This document shows positions 5,656 through 12,290 of a DNA stretch of 53,286 nt, piece after piece. The translations under genes and the position numbers were made by a program. This stretch comes from Lachnospiraceae bacterium. Its GTDB lineage: Bacteria; Bacillota; Clostridia; Lachnospirales; Lachnospiraceae. The stretch is taken from NCBI GenBank assembly GCA_017622505.1, contig JAGAQZ010000019.1, positions 1 through 53,286 of the forward strand, given 5' to 3'. Each line of letters starts with the position of its first letter. Within the stretch, counting starts at the first letter, position 1. The notes beneath the pieces were generated by a model, which had not been told where the DNA came from, made no database searches, and saw only the letters and a list, made by a program, of their open reading frames with translations.

Positions 5656-5716
5656 TCAAAACAATGTAATAGTATAATATAAAAAATATATTATATTGGT
5701 GAGGAGAGTAATAAAA

Positions 5717-6394
5717 ATGAAAACTACGTTGGGTAAAGTAACATCTATATCGTTATGTGCATTTTTAGTATTGTATGCATTTTATAATGTATTTTCGATC
5801 ATAATGCTTTTTAAAACAGTAAATTATGATTGGGATATGTATTTGGATATATACGAAATGATGAATTTGGGGCAAAGGATAAATTATATACATAATTGGT
5901 ATGTTGGACCAATAATTTCTTGGACGATTGTTTTCATTTATACAATCATAATTGGTAAAGCAAATAGGGCAAAACCGGTTGTATATTTCATTACCGCATT
6001 GGCAATTTTTGATGGCTTTTTGTTTGCCATCTTGAATGAATTTCTTTCGTCATCGTATATGATATCGATTATTTTTACTGTTATGTCTAGTTTTATTTTG
6101 CTTGCATTTGTTTTTGTTTTTCTTATGTTGTTTTTGGATTATAAAAAGAAAAAATGGAGTAAAGTAATTTGCAATACAGTAATATTTGCCTATATTGGCA
6201 GAGTTATATGTTTTTTTGTTACTTTTATTTTTAATATCTTTCGTGTTGGTATAAGTAACTTTTTTATGAATTTTGGTAATTTTATTTTACATTATGGAAG
6301 TATAATGATAGCAATCATTATATATGGACTTGTGTTGGGGTATATATTATTTCCGGAGAAGTATATAAAAAAGGAAGAGCAGAATGGGGAATAA
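5717..6394 (+). CDS. Orphan polytopic membrane protein of unknown function
   Basis: I do not recognise this 225-residue protein. It has about six hydrophobic segments, at roughly residues 8-30, 60-78, 90-110, 115-140, 155-180 and 195-218. Short charged loops separate them and the tail is KKEEQNGE. The start at 5717 is preferred over an in-frame TTG at 5696 because GGTGAGGAG (5698-5706) precedes it. Base and codon usage is noticeably more AT-rich than in the neighbours, which hints at later acquisition. It is a single-gene unit, bounded by an operator-covered promoter upstream and a hairpin terminator downstream, so it is probably tightly regulated. No function is assigned. Confidence 0.75.
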   Translation: MKTTLGKVTSISLCAFLVLYAFYNVFSIIMLFKTVNYDWDMYLDIYEMMNLGQRINYIHNWYVGPIISWTIVFIYTIIIGKANRAKPVVYFITALAIFDGFLFAILNEFLSSSYMISIIFTVMSSFILLAFVFVFLMLFLDYKKKKWSKVICNTVIFAYIGRVICFFVTFIFNIFRVGISNFFMNFGNFILHYGSIMIAIIIYGLVLGYILFPEKYIKKEEQNGE

Positions 6395-6483: not shown

Positions 6484-8475
6484 TTATTCCTCACTTAATT
6501 CTTCCCACAACTCATATAATTCATCTAATTTATTTTGCGCAGCATCGCATTCTTTGCATAATTCCTGTAATTTCACCGAGTTAGAAGCTATCTCGGGTTT
6601 GGACATTTCTTCCTGCAATTGGGCAATTTTATTTTCCAGTTCTTCGATTTCTTTCTCGGTTTTGGCGAGTTGATTTTCGCGTTTTCTCTTTGCTGCCTGT
6701 AATTCTTTTTGTTTAGCCCAATCCAGTTTCGCTTCGGTTTGGGTACCATCGTTTGAATTAGAAGTGGCAGACGCAGAACTGTTTAATGTTGTGACAGAAA
6801 CATTTGCTGTACCATTATTTCCGGTCGAAGAACTGCCTTTAGCCATATAATCCGCCGGACGTTCCGTATTCTGTGATGACTTCTCAAGGAAATAATCGTA
6901 ATCTCCCTGATAGGAAGTAACCTTACAACCATCCAAATGCAGGATTCTGCTGGCGGTACGATTGATAAAATATCGGTCATGGGATACATATAAAACGGTT
7001 CCTGTATACGCATTCAAAGCTTCTTCCAATACTTCCTTAGAAACCATATCCAAGTGGTTGGTAGGCTCGTCCAAGATTAAGAAATTCGCACCGGAGAGCA
7101 TAAGCTTGGACAAAACAACACGACCACGTTCACCACCGCTTAAAGAGCGGATTGGCTGGAAGACTTCGTCGCCCGTAAAAAGGAAGGCTGCCAGAACATT
7201 ACGTATTTCAGTTTGTGTAAGCTTGGGGTAAGTATCTGAGATTTCATCAAATACCGTTTTATTTTCGTCTAAAACCCTGCTTTGCTGGTCGAAGTAACCA
7301 ATTGTTACATTTGTACCGAGTTTTACATCTCCGTTATCCGCATCAATTAAGCCGTTGATGATTTTAAGGATGTTTGTTTTACCTGTACCGTTTTGACCGA
7401 TTAATGCAATATGTTCGCCACGTTTTATTTCGAAAGATACATTACTAAAAAGTGTTCTGTCGCCGTAGGATTTGGCAAGGTTTTCAACGGCCAATACATC
7501 ATTTCCGCTGGTTATGGTGGGAGAGAGGGTAAACTGCATATCTGCCCGTTCTTCCACAGGTTTATCAATGCGTTCGATGCGGTCCAATAATTTCTGACGG
7601 CTGTCGGCGCGTTTGACTGACTTTTCGCGGTTGAAGGAGCGGAGTTTCGTAATAACTTCTTCCTGGTGCTTGATTTCACGCTGTTGATTTTCATAGGCTG
7701 CAAGACGGGACTGTAACCAAACTTCCTTCTTCGCAATGAAATCTTCATAATTTCCTTCGTAACATAAGGAATTGCCGGCTTCAATTTCTACAACCTTGCT
7801 CACGATTTTATTGATAAAATAGCGGTCGTGGGAAACTACGAGAACCGCACTTTTAACATTTAAAAGATAGTTTTCAAGCCAGCGTACCGATTCGATATCC
7901 AGATAGTTTGTGGGCTCGTCCAAAAGGATTAAGTCAGGTTTTTCAAGAAGGATACGCCCCAAAAGAAGTCTTGTGCGTTCGCCACCGCTTAAGGTGGAAA
8001 CAGGTTTGTTGAAATCTTCCTCCTTAAATTGAAGTCCGCGTAAAATACCCTGAATATCGCTTTTATAGGTATAACCGCCGGCTAAATCAAAAGCATGCAT
8101 TTTATCATGATATGCTTTCATATGTGCATCCAAAGTTTCTTCGGTCAGATGCTTCATTTCTTCTTCCATCCGGCGAAGGGTCTCTTCCATACGAATAACA
8201 TCTGCTTTGACAACAAGAAGTTCATCGTACACCGTATTGGTGGAAGTGTAGTCGTGATGCTGTGAAAGATAGCCGATGGATGCGTCCTTTTTAATGGCAA
8301 CTTCGCCATCATCTGCATCAAGTTCCTTGGTAATAATGTAAAAAAGAGTGGTTTTTCCAGCACCGTTATTACCGATTAAAGCCACTTTCTCGTGATCATT
8401 TATATGAAAAGTTACTTTTTTCAACACGTCCTTGTCACCGAAGGATTTGGAAATGTTCTGACAGGATAAAATCAT
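6484..8475 (-). CDS. ABC-F family ATPase (YdiF/Uup-like ribosome-associated factor)
   Basis: This 663-residue protein has two fused ABC ATPase domains and no membrane segments, the hallmark of ABC-F proteins that act on ribosomes. Walker A motifs are GNNGAGKT (residues 35-42) and GQNGTGKT in the second half. LSGGE signatures and LLDEPTNYLD/LILDEPTNHLD Walker B motifs are present twice. The interdomain linker, at about 245-315, is Arg/Lys-rich. A Ser/Thr/Asn-rich spacer leads into a C-terminal coiled coil (about 600-663), as in the YdiF and Uup groups. A GGAG ribosome site precedes the ATG. It is the only minus-strand gene in the window and is divergent from the TIR locus. An antibiotic-protection role is possible but not indicated. 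Confidence 0.92.
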   Translation of the reverse strand: MILSCQNISKSFGDKDVLKKVTFHINDHEKVALIGNNGAGKTTLFYIITKELDADDGEVAIKKDASIGYLSQHHDYTSTNTVYDELLVVKADVIRMEETLRRMEEEMKHLTEETLDAHMKAYHDKMHAFDLAGGYTYKSDIQGILRGLQFKEEDFNKPVSTLSGGERTRLLLGRILLEKPDLILLDEPTNYLDIESVRWLENYLLNVKSAVLVVSHDRYFINKIVSKVVEIEAGNSLCYEGNYEDFIAKKEVWLQSRLAAYENQQREIKHQEEVITKLRSFNREKSVKRADSRQKLLDRIERIDKPVEERADMQFTLSPTITSGNDVLAVENLAKSYGDRTLFSNVSFEIKRGEHIALIGQNGTGKTNILKIINGLIDADNGDVKLGTNVTIGYFDQQSRVLDENKTVFDEISDTYPKLTQTEIRNVLAAFLFTGDEVFQPIRSLSGGERGRVVLSKLMLSGANFLILDEPTNHLDMVSKEVLEEALNAYTGTVLYVSHDRYFINRTASRILHLDGCKVTSYQGDYDYFLEKSSQNTERPADYMAKGSSSTGNNGTANVSVTTLNSSASATSNSNDGTQTEAKLDWAKQKELQAAKRKRENQLAKTEKEIEELENKIAQLQEEMSKPEIASNSVKLQELCKECDAAQNKLDELYELWEELSEE

Positions 8476-8633: not shown

Positions 8634-8662
8634 GTGCAAATAATAGGGAAGTATGTTATAAT
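8634..8662 (+). promoter_or_regulatory. Promoter for the TIR gene pair
   Basis: A perfect TATAAT (8657-8662) is preceded by an extended-minus-10 TG (8654-8655). The minus-35 position, TGTGCA (8634-8639), is poor. It lies in the 243-base divergent gap between the ABC-F gene and the first TIR gene, about 57 bases before the ATG. No other feature was seen in that gap apart from AT-rich sequence. Confidence 0.5.
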
Positions 8663-8718: not shown

Positions 8719-10083
8719 ATGTTTAATGAAAAAATACCTTTTATTTTTATCAGTTATTCGCATAAAGATTCAGATAGGGTTTGCCCGATCATCGAACGAT
8801 TGAAAAAAGAAGGATTCAATGTTTGGTATGACGATGGTATTGAGCCCGGATCTGAATGGGATGAGAACATTGCGAACCATATTTCGCAGTGTGGTTATTT
8901 TATTGCGTTTATTAGTGAGAATTATTTGGGTTCCAGCAATTGCAAGGATGAATTGAATTTTTCAAGAGATTTGGATAAAGACAGATTGCTTGTGTATTTG
9001 GAAGAAGTGGCTTTGTCCGGTGGTATGGCAATGCGTATGAATCGAAATCAGGCAATTTACTGGGACAAGTGTGAAGATAAGGAAAAGGCTTATCAGAAGC
9101 TTTTTTCAGCGGTAGGGATTGAGAAAACAAGAATATTTATTCCGAAACCGGTGGAAGAGACTGTATCGGTACAACAACCGGTTCCTCAGCCTGCTGTAGC
9201 ACAACCAGTGCCAGCACAACAGCCTGTACCCCAGTCTGTGGCACAGCAAAGACCTGTGCAACAACCGGCACCCCAGCAAAGACCTGCGCAACAGTCAGTA
9301 CCTCAGCCTGTAGCACAGCCCAGACCTGTGCAACAGCCGGTGCCTCAGCCTACAACACAGCCTAGGCCTGCGCAGCAACCGGTGCCTCAGCCTACAACAC
9401 AGCCTAGACCTGTGCAACAACCCGTAACGTCTAAAAATGCCCCTAAAAAATCAAATGGTTTAAAGATTGGTTTAATTATCGGCGGTATTATTTTAGCATT
9501 ATTGCTCGTAGGCTTTGTTTCTGTCATGATTTTAATTGTTATAGGTAGTAGCGCTTCGTCAGGGAATAATGTTGTAATTGAAGAAGATGCTACCGCAAAT
9601 GAATTGCTTCCCTTGGCAGAAGACGGAAATGCAGATGCAATGTACCGTTTGGGCGAGATCTATTTTTATGGTGAAAACGGTGAAAAAATTGATTATGATA
9701 AGAGTTTGTACTGGATGACCAAAGCTGCAGACGAAGAACATTATGATGCTTTAAAGTTTTTAATGTTTATGTATAATGTGGAAGCAACGCCATACGAATT
9801 TGATTTTGCAAAATCTGTTGAATTTGCAGAGAGGGTACTGGAACAGAATCCGGAAGATTCAGATGCAATGTTTACGATTGGATATTGTTATTCCGTTGGT
9901 GGGTATGGTATTGAGATAGATTATGAAGAGGCTGTAAAATGGTATACCAAAGCTGCCGAGTTAGGTGAACCGGATGCGATGTATAATTTGGCACTGTGTT
10001 ATTATTATGGCTATGGTGTGGAAGTGGACCAGGAAAAGTTTGATATGTGGATGCAGGCATATGAAGAGGCAATCGGAAATTAA
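8719..10083 (+). CDS. TIR-domain membrane protein with Pro/Gln linker and outward Sel1-like repeats
   Basis: The 454-residue protein has four parts. A TIR domain spans about residues 6-140, starting FIFISYSHKDSD. The C75-x-x-E78 pair, in SSNCKDEL, matches the position of the catalytic Glu of NAD-cleaving TIRs. A Pro/Gln-repeat linker (151-236) follows, then one transmembrane helix (about 250-276). Sel1/TPR-like repeats occupy 304-339 and 378-450. There is no signal peptide. Lysines precede the helix and acidic residues follow it, so the TIR is predicted cytosolic and the repeats outside. TIR domains in bacteria often hydrolyse NAD+ or make cyclic signals; activity here is inferred. The next gene is a second TIR membrane protein. 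No Thoeris ThsA-like partner is present. Confidence 0.85.
   Translation: MFNEKIPFIFISYSHKDSDRVCPIIERLKKEGFNVWYDDGIEPGSEWDENIANHISQCGYFIAFISENYLGSSNCKDELNFSRDLDKDRLLVYLEEVALSGGMAMRMNRNQAIYWDKCEDKEKAYQKLFSAVGIEKTRIFIPKPVEETVSVQQPVPQPAVAQPVPAQQPVPQSVAQQRPVQQPAPQQRPAQQSVPQPVAQPRPVQQPVPQPTTQPRPAQQPVPQPTTQPRPVQQPVTSKNAPKKSNGLKIGLIIGGIILALLLVGFVSVMILIVIGSSASSGNNVVIEEDATANELLPLAEDGNADAMYRLGEIYFYGENGEKIDYDKSLYWMTKAADEEHYDALKFLMFMYNVEATPYEFDFAKSVEFAERVLEQNPEDSDAMFTIGYCYSVGGYGIEIDYEEAVKWYTKAAELGEPDAMYNLALCYYYGYGVEVDQEKFDMWMQAYEEAIGN
9322..9405 (+). repeat. Two near-identical 42-base coding repeats in the TIR protein linker
   Basis: Residues 202-215 and 216-229 are two 14-residue units, RP[VA]QQPVPQPTTQP, encoded by nearly identical 42-base units. 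Degenerate copies extend upstream to about 9169. Such repeats allow linker length to vary by recombination or slippage without a frameshift. Confidence 0.8.
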
Positions 10084-10134
10084 GTTAAAGTTGTCGTATG
10101 TTTGTTGGCATATTTTTTGAAAGGTAGAAGTTAA

Positions 10135-11589
10135 ATGGCAAATATTTTTCTAAGTCATAGTACAATTGATGGAGAACTGGCGAATTACATCTGCGAATCA
10201 TTTGAGAGCAGAGGCTTGTCATGCTGGATTGCGCCACGTAATATCAGACCCGGTGAGGACTGGGCATCAAGTATTACGAATGCCATATCGGAAGCGGATG
10301 TGTTTTTCATTCTTTACAGCAAGCATTCCATTAAGTCTTCACAGTGTGCGAAGGAAATCGGAATTGCTGACCGTAAGAAGAAATATATTATCCCATATAA
10401 AATTGACGATACTGAGCCGGAGGGTGCTTTTGACTATTATTTGACCGGTTGTCAATGGTTTATTATTGACCCTTCAACCGGTGAATATAAAATGGATGAA
10501 CTGTGTGATGCGATTAAGGGTGTTATTCTGCAAAAATATGATGAAGAGCAGCAACTTACTGAGACTGTTCCCGTGCAGAATAATGTTCCGGATGTACGGT
10601 CCGAAGTAGTGTTGTCACAAACTGTCGAGCCAAGAATTAAAACGGATATGCTTGTTTCTCAAAGTGCGTCCAAAGTTGCGGCTAAAGAAACTGCATCAGT
10701 GAAAAAAACGGAGAGCGTAGCAAAAACGGTTCGAAAGAAAACGACTTCCGCAAAAACGCAAAAAACAATCCGTAAACGCACAAAAGCCCAGAAGGAAAGA
10801 AGAAATCTATTAATCGGCGAAATTTGTGTTCTTGCGTTGATTTGCATAGTCGGTGTGATTGGTATTACGGCTGTTATCAGAAGTGTAACAGGAAATGAGA
10901 ATGCTTCGTCGGAACAGGGAGGATTATTTAATAAACCAAACGGTACCACCTCGGCAAAATATTTCGAATATAAGGAAGTCGACGGATATATCATTGTTAT
11001 GAGCTATACCGGAACGGATGGTAATGTTGTAATTCCTTCTGAGATTGACGGTAAAAAGGTTATGGCTCTTGGCGGAAAAATCTTTTTCTGTAACGAATAT
11101 GTTACTTCCGTAGAATTACCTGAGACAATTGTGGAAATTCCGACCTATGCGTTCTATAAATGTACTAATTTAGAGAAGGTCGTGATTCCGGAAGGCGTAA
11201 AGTTTATCGGGATGCATGCGTTTGAAGAGTGCACAAGTTTAACTGCGGTTCAAATTCCTGACAGTGTTGTTACAATCGGAGATTTTGCTTTTTGTAAATG
11301 TACCAATCTTTCGGATGTTAAGATGTCAGGAAATGTACAAAGTATCGGTATGTATTCATTTTCAAACTGTGAAACATTGAGTACAATTGCATTACCGGAC
11401 ACATTGGTTTCTGTCGGAGATATGGCATTTGCTTATTGTACTTCAATGAGCGAAATAACAATACCTGTAGGAATTGAGTCAATTTCGGCAAATGCATTTA
11501 GTGGTTGTCAGGATATAACAGTATATTATGATGATGCAAGCTATATGAATGATATTTCGGCGATTGTTGAACAGTTGTCGGAAGAGTAA
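10135..11589 (+). CDS. TIR-domain membrane protein with outward LRR_5 (BspA-like) domain
   Basis: The 484-residue protein opens with a TIR domain (residues 2-135, NIFLSHSTIDGELA). SSQCAKEI places the presumptive catalytic Glu at 74. A Ser/Thr/Lys-rich linker becomes strongly basic just before a single transmembrane helix (about 224-247). The C-terminal part (about 295-470) is a run of LRR_5 repeats of the IPxGVxxIGxxAFxxC type. The positive-inside rule puts the TIR in the cytosol and the LRR outside. These are the same modules as in eukaryotic Toll-like receptors but in reversed order. It follows the Sel1-type TIR gene by 51 bases with no terminator between, so the two are probably cotranscribed. 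The function is unknown; NAD hydrolysis is inference. Confidence 0.87.
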   Translation: MANIFLSHSTIDGELANYICESFESRGLSCWIAPRNIRPGEDWASSITNAISEADVFFILYSKHSIKSSQCAKEIGIADRKKKYIIPYKIDDTEPEGAFDYYLTGCQWFIIDPSTGEYKMDELCDAIKGVILQKYDEEQQLTETVPVQNNVPDVRSEVVLSQTVEPRIKTDMLVSQSASKVAAKETASVKKTESVAKTVRKKTTSAKTQKTIRKRTKAQKERRNLLIGEICVLALICIVGVIGITAVIRSVTGNENASSEQGGLFNKPNGTTSAKYFEYKEVDGYIIVMSYTGTDGNVVIPSEIDGKKVMALGGKIFFCNEYVTSVELPETIVEIPTYAFYKCTNLEKVVIPEGVKFIGMHAFEECTSLTAVQIPDSVVTIGDFAFCKCTNLSDVKMSGNVQSIGMYSFSNCETLSTIALPDTLVSVGDMAFAYCTSMSEITIPVGIESISANAFSGCQDITVYYDDASYMNDISAIVEQLSEE

Positions 11590-11608
11590 TATTTTAGATT
11601 ATTTGAGA

Positions 11609-11640
11609 ACCTAGGGTGTACAAATAGTACCTAGGGTGTA
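11609..11640 (+). repeat. Pair of 12-base direct repeats before rex
   Basis: ACCTAGGGTGTA occurs at 11609-11620 and again at 11629-11640, a period of exactly 20 bases. Each copy contains the palindrome CCTAGG. They end ten bases before the rex Shine-Dalgarno region. They do not resemble the usual Rex operator (TTGTTAA-type dyad), so autoregulation by Rex is not obvious. Confidence 0.7.
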
Positions 11641-11657: not shown

Positions 11658-12290
11658 ATGACAGACAAAGGTATTTCCCAAGCGGTCATCGCAAGATTGC
11701 CCCGGTATTTCAGATTTTTGGGCGATTTAAAAGAAGAAGGGGTGGAACGTATTTCCTCCCAGGAACTAAGTAAGAGAATGGGAATTACTGCGTCCCAAAT
11801 CCGACAGGATTTTAATCATTTTGGCGGATTTGGACAGCAGGGATACGGCTATAATGTAGATTATCTTTATAATGAAATTGCGAAAATTCTTGGATTGGAT
11901 AAAAAACATAACCTGATTATTATCGGTTCCGGTAATTTGGGACAGGCCCTTGCAAATTATGTTAGTTTCGAGAAGCGTGGTTTCTTAATTAAGGGAATGT
12001 TTGATAATAATCCTGCGTTGCAGGGCAAACAGGTTCGCGGAATGGAGATTCGTCCTACGGATGAGATTGAGTCTTTTATCAAGGAAAATAACATTGATAT
12101 TGCAGTATTAACCGTTCCGAAGACCGGTGCGACCGAGATTGCCAAAAAGCTTGTAAAATGCGGTATTCGCGGTATTTGGAATTTCGCCCATGTGGATTTA
12201 GACGTTCCTTCGGATGTAACGGTTGAAAATGTACATTTGTCGGACAGTTTAATGAAATTATCGTATAAAATTAATTGCAAAAATGAATAA
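11658..12290 (+). CDS. rex: Redox-sensing transcriptional repressor Rex
   Basis: The 210-residue protein matches the Rex family in length and architecture. An N-terminal winged helix occupies residues 1-80 (ISSQELSKRMGITASQIRQDF is the recognition region). A Rossmann domain with GSGNLGQA at 90-97 binds NADH. A C-terminal swapped helix completes the dimer. Rex leaves DNA when the NADH/NAD+ ratio rises and so controls fermentation genes. The ATG at 11658 follows GTAGGAGG. It heads a group of housekeeping genes (coiled-coil protein, nnr, alr, mazF). The upstream TIR genes may use the same cofactor pool, but there is no direct evidence of a link. Confidence 0.95.
   Translation: MTDKGISQAVIARLPRYFRFLGDLKEEGVERISSQELSKRMGITASQIRQDFNHFGGFGQQGYGYNVDYLYNEIAKILGLDKKHNLIIIGSGNLGQALANYVSFEKRGFLIKGMFDNNPALQGKQVRGMEIRPTDEIESFIKENNIDIAVLTVPKTGATEIAKKLVKCGIRGIWNFAHVDLDVPSDVTVENVHLSDSLMKLSYKINCKNE

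Follow-up and report, generated by a model that had tools for sequence, protein, structure and literature searches.

Two adjacent TIR-domain genes of a Lachnospiraceae bacterium and a wider class of predicted TIR receptors with exchangeable outer domains

Can an external ligand switch TIR chemistry in bacteria? Bacterial TIR proteins whose trigger is known mostly sense intracellular threats, and the question is raised here by a class of predicted membrane proteins that includes the products of two neighbouring genes in a 53,286-nucleotide stretch of DNA from a Lachnospiraceae bacterium (NCBI GenBank assembly GCA_017622505.1, contig JAGAQZ010000019.1), hereafter the window. Both genes lie on the forward strand: T1 (positions 8719-10083) encodes 454 amino acids (aa) and T2 (10135-11589) encodes 484, with a gap of 51 nt between them; they are flanked by an ABC-F-type gene on the opposite strand (6484-8475) and by a Rex-like gene (11658-12290). 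The original prediction saw in them a possible membrane receptor module built from the parts of a Toll-like receptor (TLR). We find that their membership of a receptor class is well supported, whereas an obligate two-protein module is not.

Both proteins begin with a TIR domain. Pfam TIR_2, for which the curated cut-off is 28 bits, matches T1 at residues 9-128 (8743-9102) with 73.1 bits and T2 at residues 4-96 (10144-10422) with 70.8 bits. At the C-terminal end, three stretches of Sel1 in T1 (88.5 bits) and LRR_5 in T2 (161.4 bits) also exceed their curated cut-offs, so that all four matches bear out the predicted domain composition. The best match of the T2 outer part in the PDB is 4gt6, an entry named "cell surface protein" (E 4e-50). 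The linkers are of low complexity, lysine-rich in T2 and Q/P-rich in T1, where part of the linker is encoded by a 42-bp minisatellite of 3.3 copies (9280-9419, forward strand). Each protein has a single strong hydrophobic helix, at residues 257-275 of T1 (9487-9543; mean hydropathy 3.35) and 230-248 of T2 (10822-10878; 3.08). In the 30 residues before and after the helix, lysine and arginine number 5 and 0 in T1 and 12 and 3 in T2, the pattern that had been foreseen. Of the 37 window open reading frames (ORFs) of at least 200 aa, five have one and only one helix that lies over 100 aa from the N end and over 80 aa from the C end, and T1 and T2 are among the five.

According to the positive-inside rule, the positively charged side of a helix is cytoplasmic. 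Because the positive charge precedes the helix in both proteins, the TIR domains are predicted to lie inside, and the three Sel1 repeats of T1 (9544-10080) and the BspA-type LRR_5 of T2 (10948-11586) outside, as originally proposed. T1 and T2 thus show the N-terminal TIR, the one helix, the C-terminal part of at least 80 aa and the positive charge before the helix by which we define a class of N-in TIR-transmembrane-ectodomain proteins.

This layout recalls several known systems. Animal TLRs likewise have a cytoplasmic TIR, one transmembrane helix and a repeat ectodomain, which in T2 is also of the leucine-rich type; T1 and T2 differ in being bacterial, in having Sel1 and BspA-type LRR_5 as ectodomains, in having no known adaptor and in their reversed order, with the TIR N-terminal and inside. 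The predicted reversal of the TLR order is seen in both proteins. PASTA-type receptor kinases have an N-in catalytic head, one helix and an outer sensor, the same layout with a kinase in place of the TIR. In the window genome, a kinase of 732 aa has a single helix, at residues 399-417, and a weak DUF6273-like match, an ectodomain type shared with TIR proteins, was found at one of three kinase loci. From other BspA-type LRR_5 and Sel1 repeat proteins, T1 and T2 differ in that the repeats are fused to a TIR across a helix. In the portion of the literature available to us, Sel1 repeats after a transmembrane segment have been read as peptidoglycan-associating (PMC7159879), and group 6 of a TIR survey includes bacterial proteins in which the TIR is N-terminal and TPRs follow at the C terminus (PMC7075850); the accessible text of the survey does not mention a helix between the two.

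How widespread is this architecture? With one genome scanned per species, the T1 TIR has 248 relatives, the best 80 of which, here called the T1 family, come mostly from gut or rumen Bacillota according to the record titles. Among the T1-family proteins with TIR-transmembrane-ectodomain architecture, 22 of 26 have an excess of lysine and arginine on the N-side of the helix. Their outer parts include Sel1, DUF285 (L095, 75.7 bits), NPCBM (L139, 60.3 bits) and LRR_4; Big_2 in L084 falls just below its cut-off (22.2 versus 22.8), and in 11 rows labelled "other" or having no Pfam match (e.g., L093, L096 and L105) the outer part is unassigned. T2-type TIRs carry Sel1 (L241, L211 and L245), DUF6273 (L217, L219, L258 and L069), LRR_4 (L226) and LRR_5 (L240). 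NPCBM and DUF285 are domains commonly located on the cell surface. A TIR-transmembrane-Sel1 relative is also present in a cultured isolate, Lachnospiraceae bacterium NC2008 (L107).

In a tree of 80 TIRs from TIR-transmembrane-ectodomain proteins, 50 rows group with T1 and 30 with T2, and the split between the two clades has 100% support in the approximate likelihood-ratio test (SH-aLRT). Both clades contain Sel1 as well as LRR_4, and the well-supported branches imply at least two state changes (gains or losses) for each of them, in a tree that was made from few columns by a quick method, carries a long-branch warning (L226 included) and takes its ectodomain labels from seed searches, with 23 of the 80 rows labelled "other". 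The window pair consists of one member of each clade, and because the two TIRs are only 20-22% identical and their clades are fully separated, T1 and T2 do not represent a recent duplication. Loci with multiple TIR genes recur: L105 has four with a helix and L096 three. TIR_2 was matched in all 31 genomes of the genus (listed completeness 67-100%, many incomplete), 2-10 times in each and ten times in the window genome; at E 1e-20, relatives of the T1 TIR were found in 16 of 392 genomes of the order, the window genome included. In the region 6760-14962 of L059, a TIR-transmembrane-LRR_4 gene stands amid signalling genes (MCP, SpoIIE with 5TMR, and EAL-GGDEF).

These observations give good support to a receptor class larger than the window, made up of proteins predicted to be N-in TIR receptors whose outer domains can be exchanged. 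Within the open-licence literature searched, as far as its texts were accessible, we found no description of such a class; the accessible portions report that bacterial TIRs occur in many architectures (PMC8635717) and describe a TIR protein of an amoeba in which a helix is N-terminal (PMC13142454).

Are the TIR domains enzymes? The candidate catalytic glutamates are present as predicted, in a C-x-x-E context: C75-K-D-E78 in T1 (Glu codon 8950-8952) and C71-A-K-E74 in T2 (10354-10356). Because Cys71 is Val in both T2 orthologues, only the Glu of the T2 motif is conserved. E78 and E74 share one alignment column, which is Glu in 88 of 88 TIRs (41 of 41 in a smaller alignment); the 88 comprise 80 distinct TIRs of TIR-transmembrane-ectodomain proteins from the fetched loci, the window pair included and 21 of the proteins cut by the end of their locus, and eight other TIRs of the window genome. 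In a PDB profile search, T2 E74 aligned weakly (E about 0.05; range 0.04-0.06) with Glu77 of the TIR-APAZ protein of SPARTA, with the local context KEIGIA in T2 and KELAVA in TIR-APAZ. The aligned chain has the sequence of the chain in entries 8I87 and 8I88 of PMC10474274; in the accessible part of that paper, E77A is the catalytic mutant, and the NADase function of the SPARTA TIR needs TIR self-association. By alignment, the predicted placing of the Glu in the TIR active site thus appears sound, and a catalytic (NADase) reading of the two TIRs is plausible. T1 and T2 differ from SPARTA in being predicted to be membrane-anchored, and neither APAZ nor a short Argonaute appears among the Pfam matches listed for T1, T2 and five neighbouring proteins.

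We consider it an even chance that T1 and T2 are two N-in/C-out TIR receptors whose ectodomains control clustering and whose signal probably consumes NAD+. The two proteins would probably be made from one two-gene operon. A TATAAT-like -10 element lies 5' of the pair (8657-8662, forward strand, as read from the sequence) and recurs at the matching place in one of the two other genomes that have the pair (G019; not in G027) and 5' of a decayed relic of the pair in a fourth genome (G005); it has no entry in the promoter scan, in which no -35 partner passed. The Sel1 and LRR_5 ectodomains would meet an envelope or extracellular ligand, ligand contact would cluster the receptors, and self-association of the cytoplasmic TIRs would then lead to cleavage of NAD+ or of a related nucleotide. 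Cleavage might lower NAD+ locally or yield an ADP-ribose-type messenger, by which the cell would be slowed or redirected. The pair would probably feed two inputs into a single type of output, and physical contact between T1 and T2 is only possible. If this is true, a chromosomal family that keeps its TIR in the cytoplasm and exposes surface-type domains would amount to receptor signalling across the membrane by a TIR. A bolder proposal, that the class is the gut Clostridia's counterpart of TLRs, with N-in TIR enzymes, interchangeable sensors and at least two TIR lineages, and that the pair is one two-input receptor, seems to us doubtful.

Several observations weigh against the reading of T1 and T2 as NAD+-consuming receptors. 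With one ORF counted per locus, only 26 of the 80 T1-family loci have the TIR-transmembrane-ectodomain architecture; 27 have no helix, 13 have several helices, 2 have a short tail, in 5 the TIR is not at the N terminus, and 7 gave no intact TIR ORF. In 4 of the 26, the charge bias is absent. The pair itself is rare outside its closest relatives. T2 matches TIR-APAZ only weakly, and its best PDB match is a metazoan TIR-STING (E 0.0098), in which the alignment ends before the Glu. At position -4 from the Glu, T1 has Asn and T2 Gln, where five aligned PDB chains, two of them TLR1 chains, have Trp; this absence is not decisive because TIR-APAZ, an active NADase, also lacks Trp and has Gly there. 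Finally, TLR TIRs carry the same Glu column and, in the accessible text of PMC11204291, were originally described as scaffolds, so that the Glu alone proves nothing.

A different explanation sees the TIRs as scaffolds and not as enzymes: once the receptors cluster, their TIRs would assemble into a platform to which some other cytoplasmic protein is drawn, in the manner of animal TLRs. The missing Trp would fit such scaffolds, the T1-family TIR profile scores similarly against TLR15/2 (8.9e-9) and bacterial Cat1 (7.4e-9), and the ten TIR_2 matches of the window genome could form a network. Against it stand the invariance of the Glu and the alignment, weak as it is, of T2 with the NAD+-cleaving TIR-APAZ around this residue, and no obvious adaptor was seen among the five neighbours scanned. 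We judge a scaffold role of this kind to be rather unlikely.

Do T1 and T2 belong together? Among the 31 genus genomes, three (the window genome, G019 and G027) showed the order ABC-F, T1, T2, Rex, with T1-T2 gaps of 51, 41 and 36 nt. These are three of the four closest genomes, and the fourth (G005) is equally close, with Rex 92-94% identical to that of the other three and ABC-F 92%; its site between Rex and ABC-F (L070) retains the promoter region and two T1 fragments, and T2 is gone. Eight other genomes were compared at this site. Between ABC-F and Rex, five of them lack any ORF of 80 aa or longer (L074-L078, with the ABC-F of L074 split into two ORFs), and the remaining three contain different genes (L071-L073); in two additional genomes (L081 and L082), the stretch read shows no ABC-F adjacent to Rex. 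Only 2 of the 80 fetched T1-family loci contain the pair, both from genomes already among the three, and elsewhere in these loci T1-type and T2-type genes stand separately. Relatives of the T2 TIR above 40% identity occur within the genus in G027, G019 and G018, and the best among 299 family genomes, apart from the window, is 39% identical, in a search made with the T2 TIR alone since the full-length query was flooded by LRR_5 matches. Rare adjacency of the two genes, named beforehand as evidence against the module, is thus largely what is seen outside the closest relatives, and the adjacency is retained in three of the four closest genomes.

Among the three genomes, protein identity is 40-48% for T1 and 47-54% for T2, and the TIRs (68-69% in T1, 71-73% in T2) are better conserved than the outer parts (31-41% and 50%). 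Most flanking genes compared are less diverged: Rex is 91-94% identical, ABC-F 91-92%, IDH 99%, a coiled-coil gene after Rex 81-87% and an LRR protein gene (987-2498) 76-82%; NnrDE (57-69%) diverges as much as the TIRs. Positive selection on T1 and T2 was considered and set aside, as synonymous divergence (dS) was high or not computable. It is possible, with a chance that falls little short of even, that T1 and T2 work independently and that their adjacency arose by accident and was inherited in one species group, a view compatible with the other readings. The small number of genomes with the pair and the separation of the two gene types elsewhere favour it; against it, order, spacing and ectodomain types have been kept despite the divergence of both proteins. 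As an arrangement, the pair is conserved but narrowly distributed, and the two class members that form it are only distant relatives.

Could the pair be a surface-triggered, abortive anti-phage system? Searched against defence-system models, the two proteins gave only partial, weak PADLOC matches (best scores 35.0 bits for T1 and 37.9 bits for T2), which map to the TIR when the model is ThsB or another defence TIR and to the low-complexity linker when it is PD-T4-6; neither has a strong full-length PADLOC match, and NCBIfam gave none over cut-off. With Thoeris they share the TIR fold of ThsB, and the E. coli CFT073 system resembles them in having two TIR proteins in one system, according to the available text of PMC11204291. 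T1 and T2 differ from Thoeris in that the ThsB matches are weak and that, in agreement with the original prediction, no ThsA is found among the five neighbours scanned by Pfam; a STALD (ThsA-type) search of the 31 genus genomes gave no match, and the control likewise matched nowhere. Relatives are nearly absent from mobile-element collections: one among 45 pattern matches in viral contigs, one phage record per TIR and two plasmid records per TIR.

The surroundings of the 26 T1-family receptors were also inspected. Within two ORFs of them lie 83 ORFs of 100-1300 aa, 7 of them TIR; of the other 76, 64 were scanned against PADLOC and 12 (104-219 aa) were left out. The 64 matched 44 PADLOC families at 1e-10, of which 25 were listed, in a scan made without a background control. 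When 20 neighbours were rescanned singly, the mad3, mad8 and AriA matches proved to be ABC-F-type ATPases. The more specific matches, HEC-06, Orf5 and SspE, trace to L147 and L150, and PDC-M33A to L150; these two loci from Clostridia of horse faeces have nearly identical TIRs, and their T1-family TIR-transmembrane genes adjoin the HEC-06/Orf5 matches. A further member gave a PDC-S01 match (7.8e-105). These strong matches would suit an anti-phage role, as would the similarity to defence TIR models, the faster divergence of T1 and T2 than of Rex and ABC-F, and the deletion of the pair in one close genome. Given the weakness of the pair's own matches, the confinement of the specific matches among the 20 rescanned neighbours to two related loci and the scarcity of relatives in viral, phage and plasmid records, any defence tie of the class would be weak, and an anti-phage role of the pair is quite unlikely.

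The gene downstream raises a further question, since Rex senses NADH/NAD+: might TIR activity shift NAD+/NADH and Rex read the shift? Rex starts 68 nt after T2, the gap contains neither a terminator nor a promoter match, and NnrD/E, a gene for NAD(P)HX repair, lies two genes beyond Rex. The same genome also has, in L052 (230-7770; G000:C25), three tandem TIR-transmembrane-propeller genes on the same strand after genes for NrtR, a Nudix regulator, and a DHH protein; the propeller-like outer part exceeds the Pfam cut-off in one of the three. On the other side, a promoter-like TTGTCA/TATGAT pair inside the end of T2 (11505-11532) could serve Rex, and Rex stands without TIRs in relatives. In G019 and G027, sequence reading and folding place a stable hairpin and, ahead of Rex, a TTGACA/TATAAT pair in the T2-Rex gap, so that an NAD-sensing link via Rex is not a constant feature. 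NrtR-DHH also precedes two TIR-propeller genes in G005 (L259) and is absent from the other seven loci (L260-L266); with NrtR at only L052 and L259 of nine TIR-propeller loci, that is, at one of the eight outside the window genome, one of which is cut by a contig end, the NrtR link was marked down. A partnership with Rex is highly improbable.

Some minor observations may be added. L060 shows ORF sizes like those of the TIR-transmembrane-LRR_4 region of L059, and the T1 protein of G027 (L054:9283-10983) has a zinc-ribbon-like stretch, just under the Pfam cut-off, in its cytoplasmic linker. In L051 (3034-11708; G000:C55), five tandem TIR genes stand just before dnaE; four of the five products have a C-terminal helix, of the three compared with Pfam two contain TPR, and similar arrays occur in G027 (L267) and G005 (L268). 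Elsewhere in the window, the gene at 987-2498 encodes a separate LRR_5-like protein whose homologues in closely related genomes have an N-terminal hydrophobic stretch and which may be secreted, and 5696-6394 encodes a 232-aa protein without a Pfam match whose G005 homologues have several helices. The T2-Rex gap contains, at 11606-11640, two copies of a 15-nt sequence ending CCTAGGGTGTA, spaced 20 nt apart.

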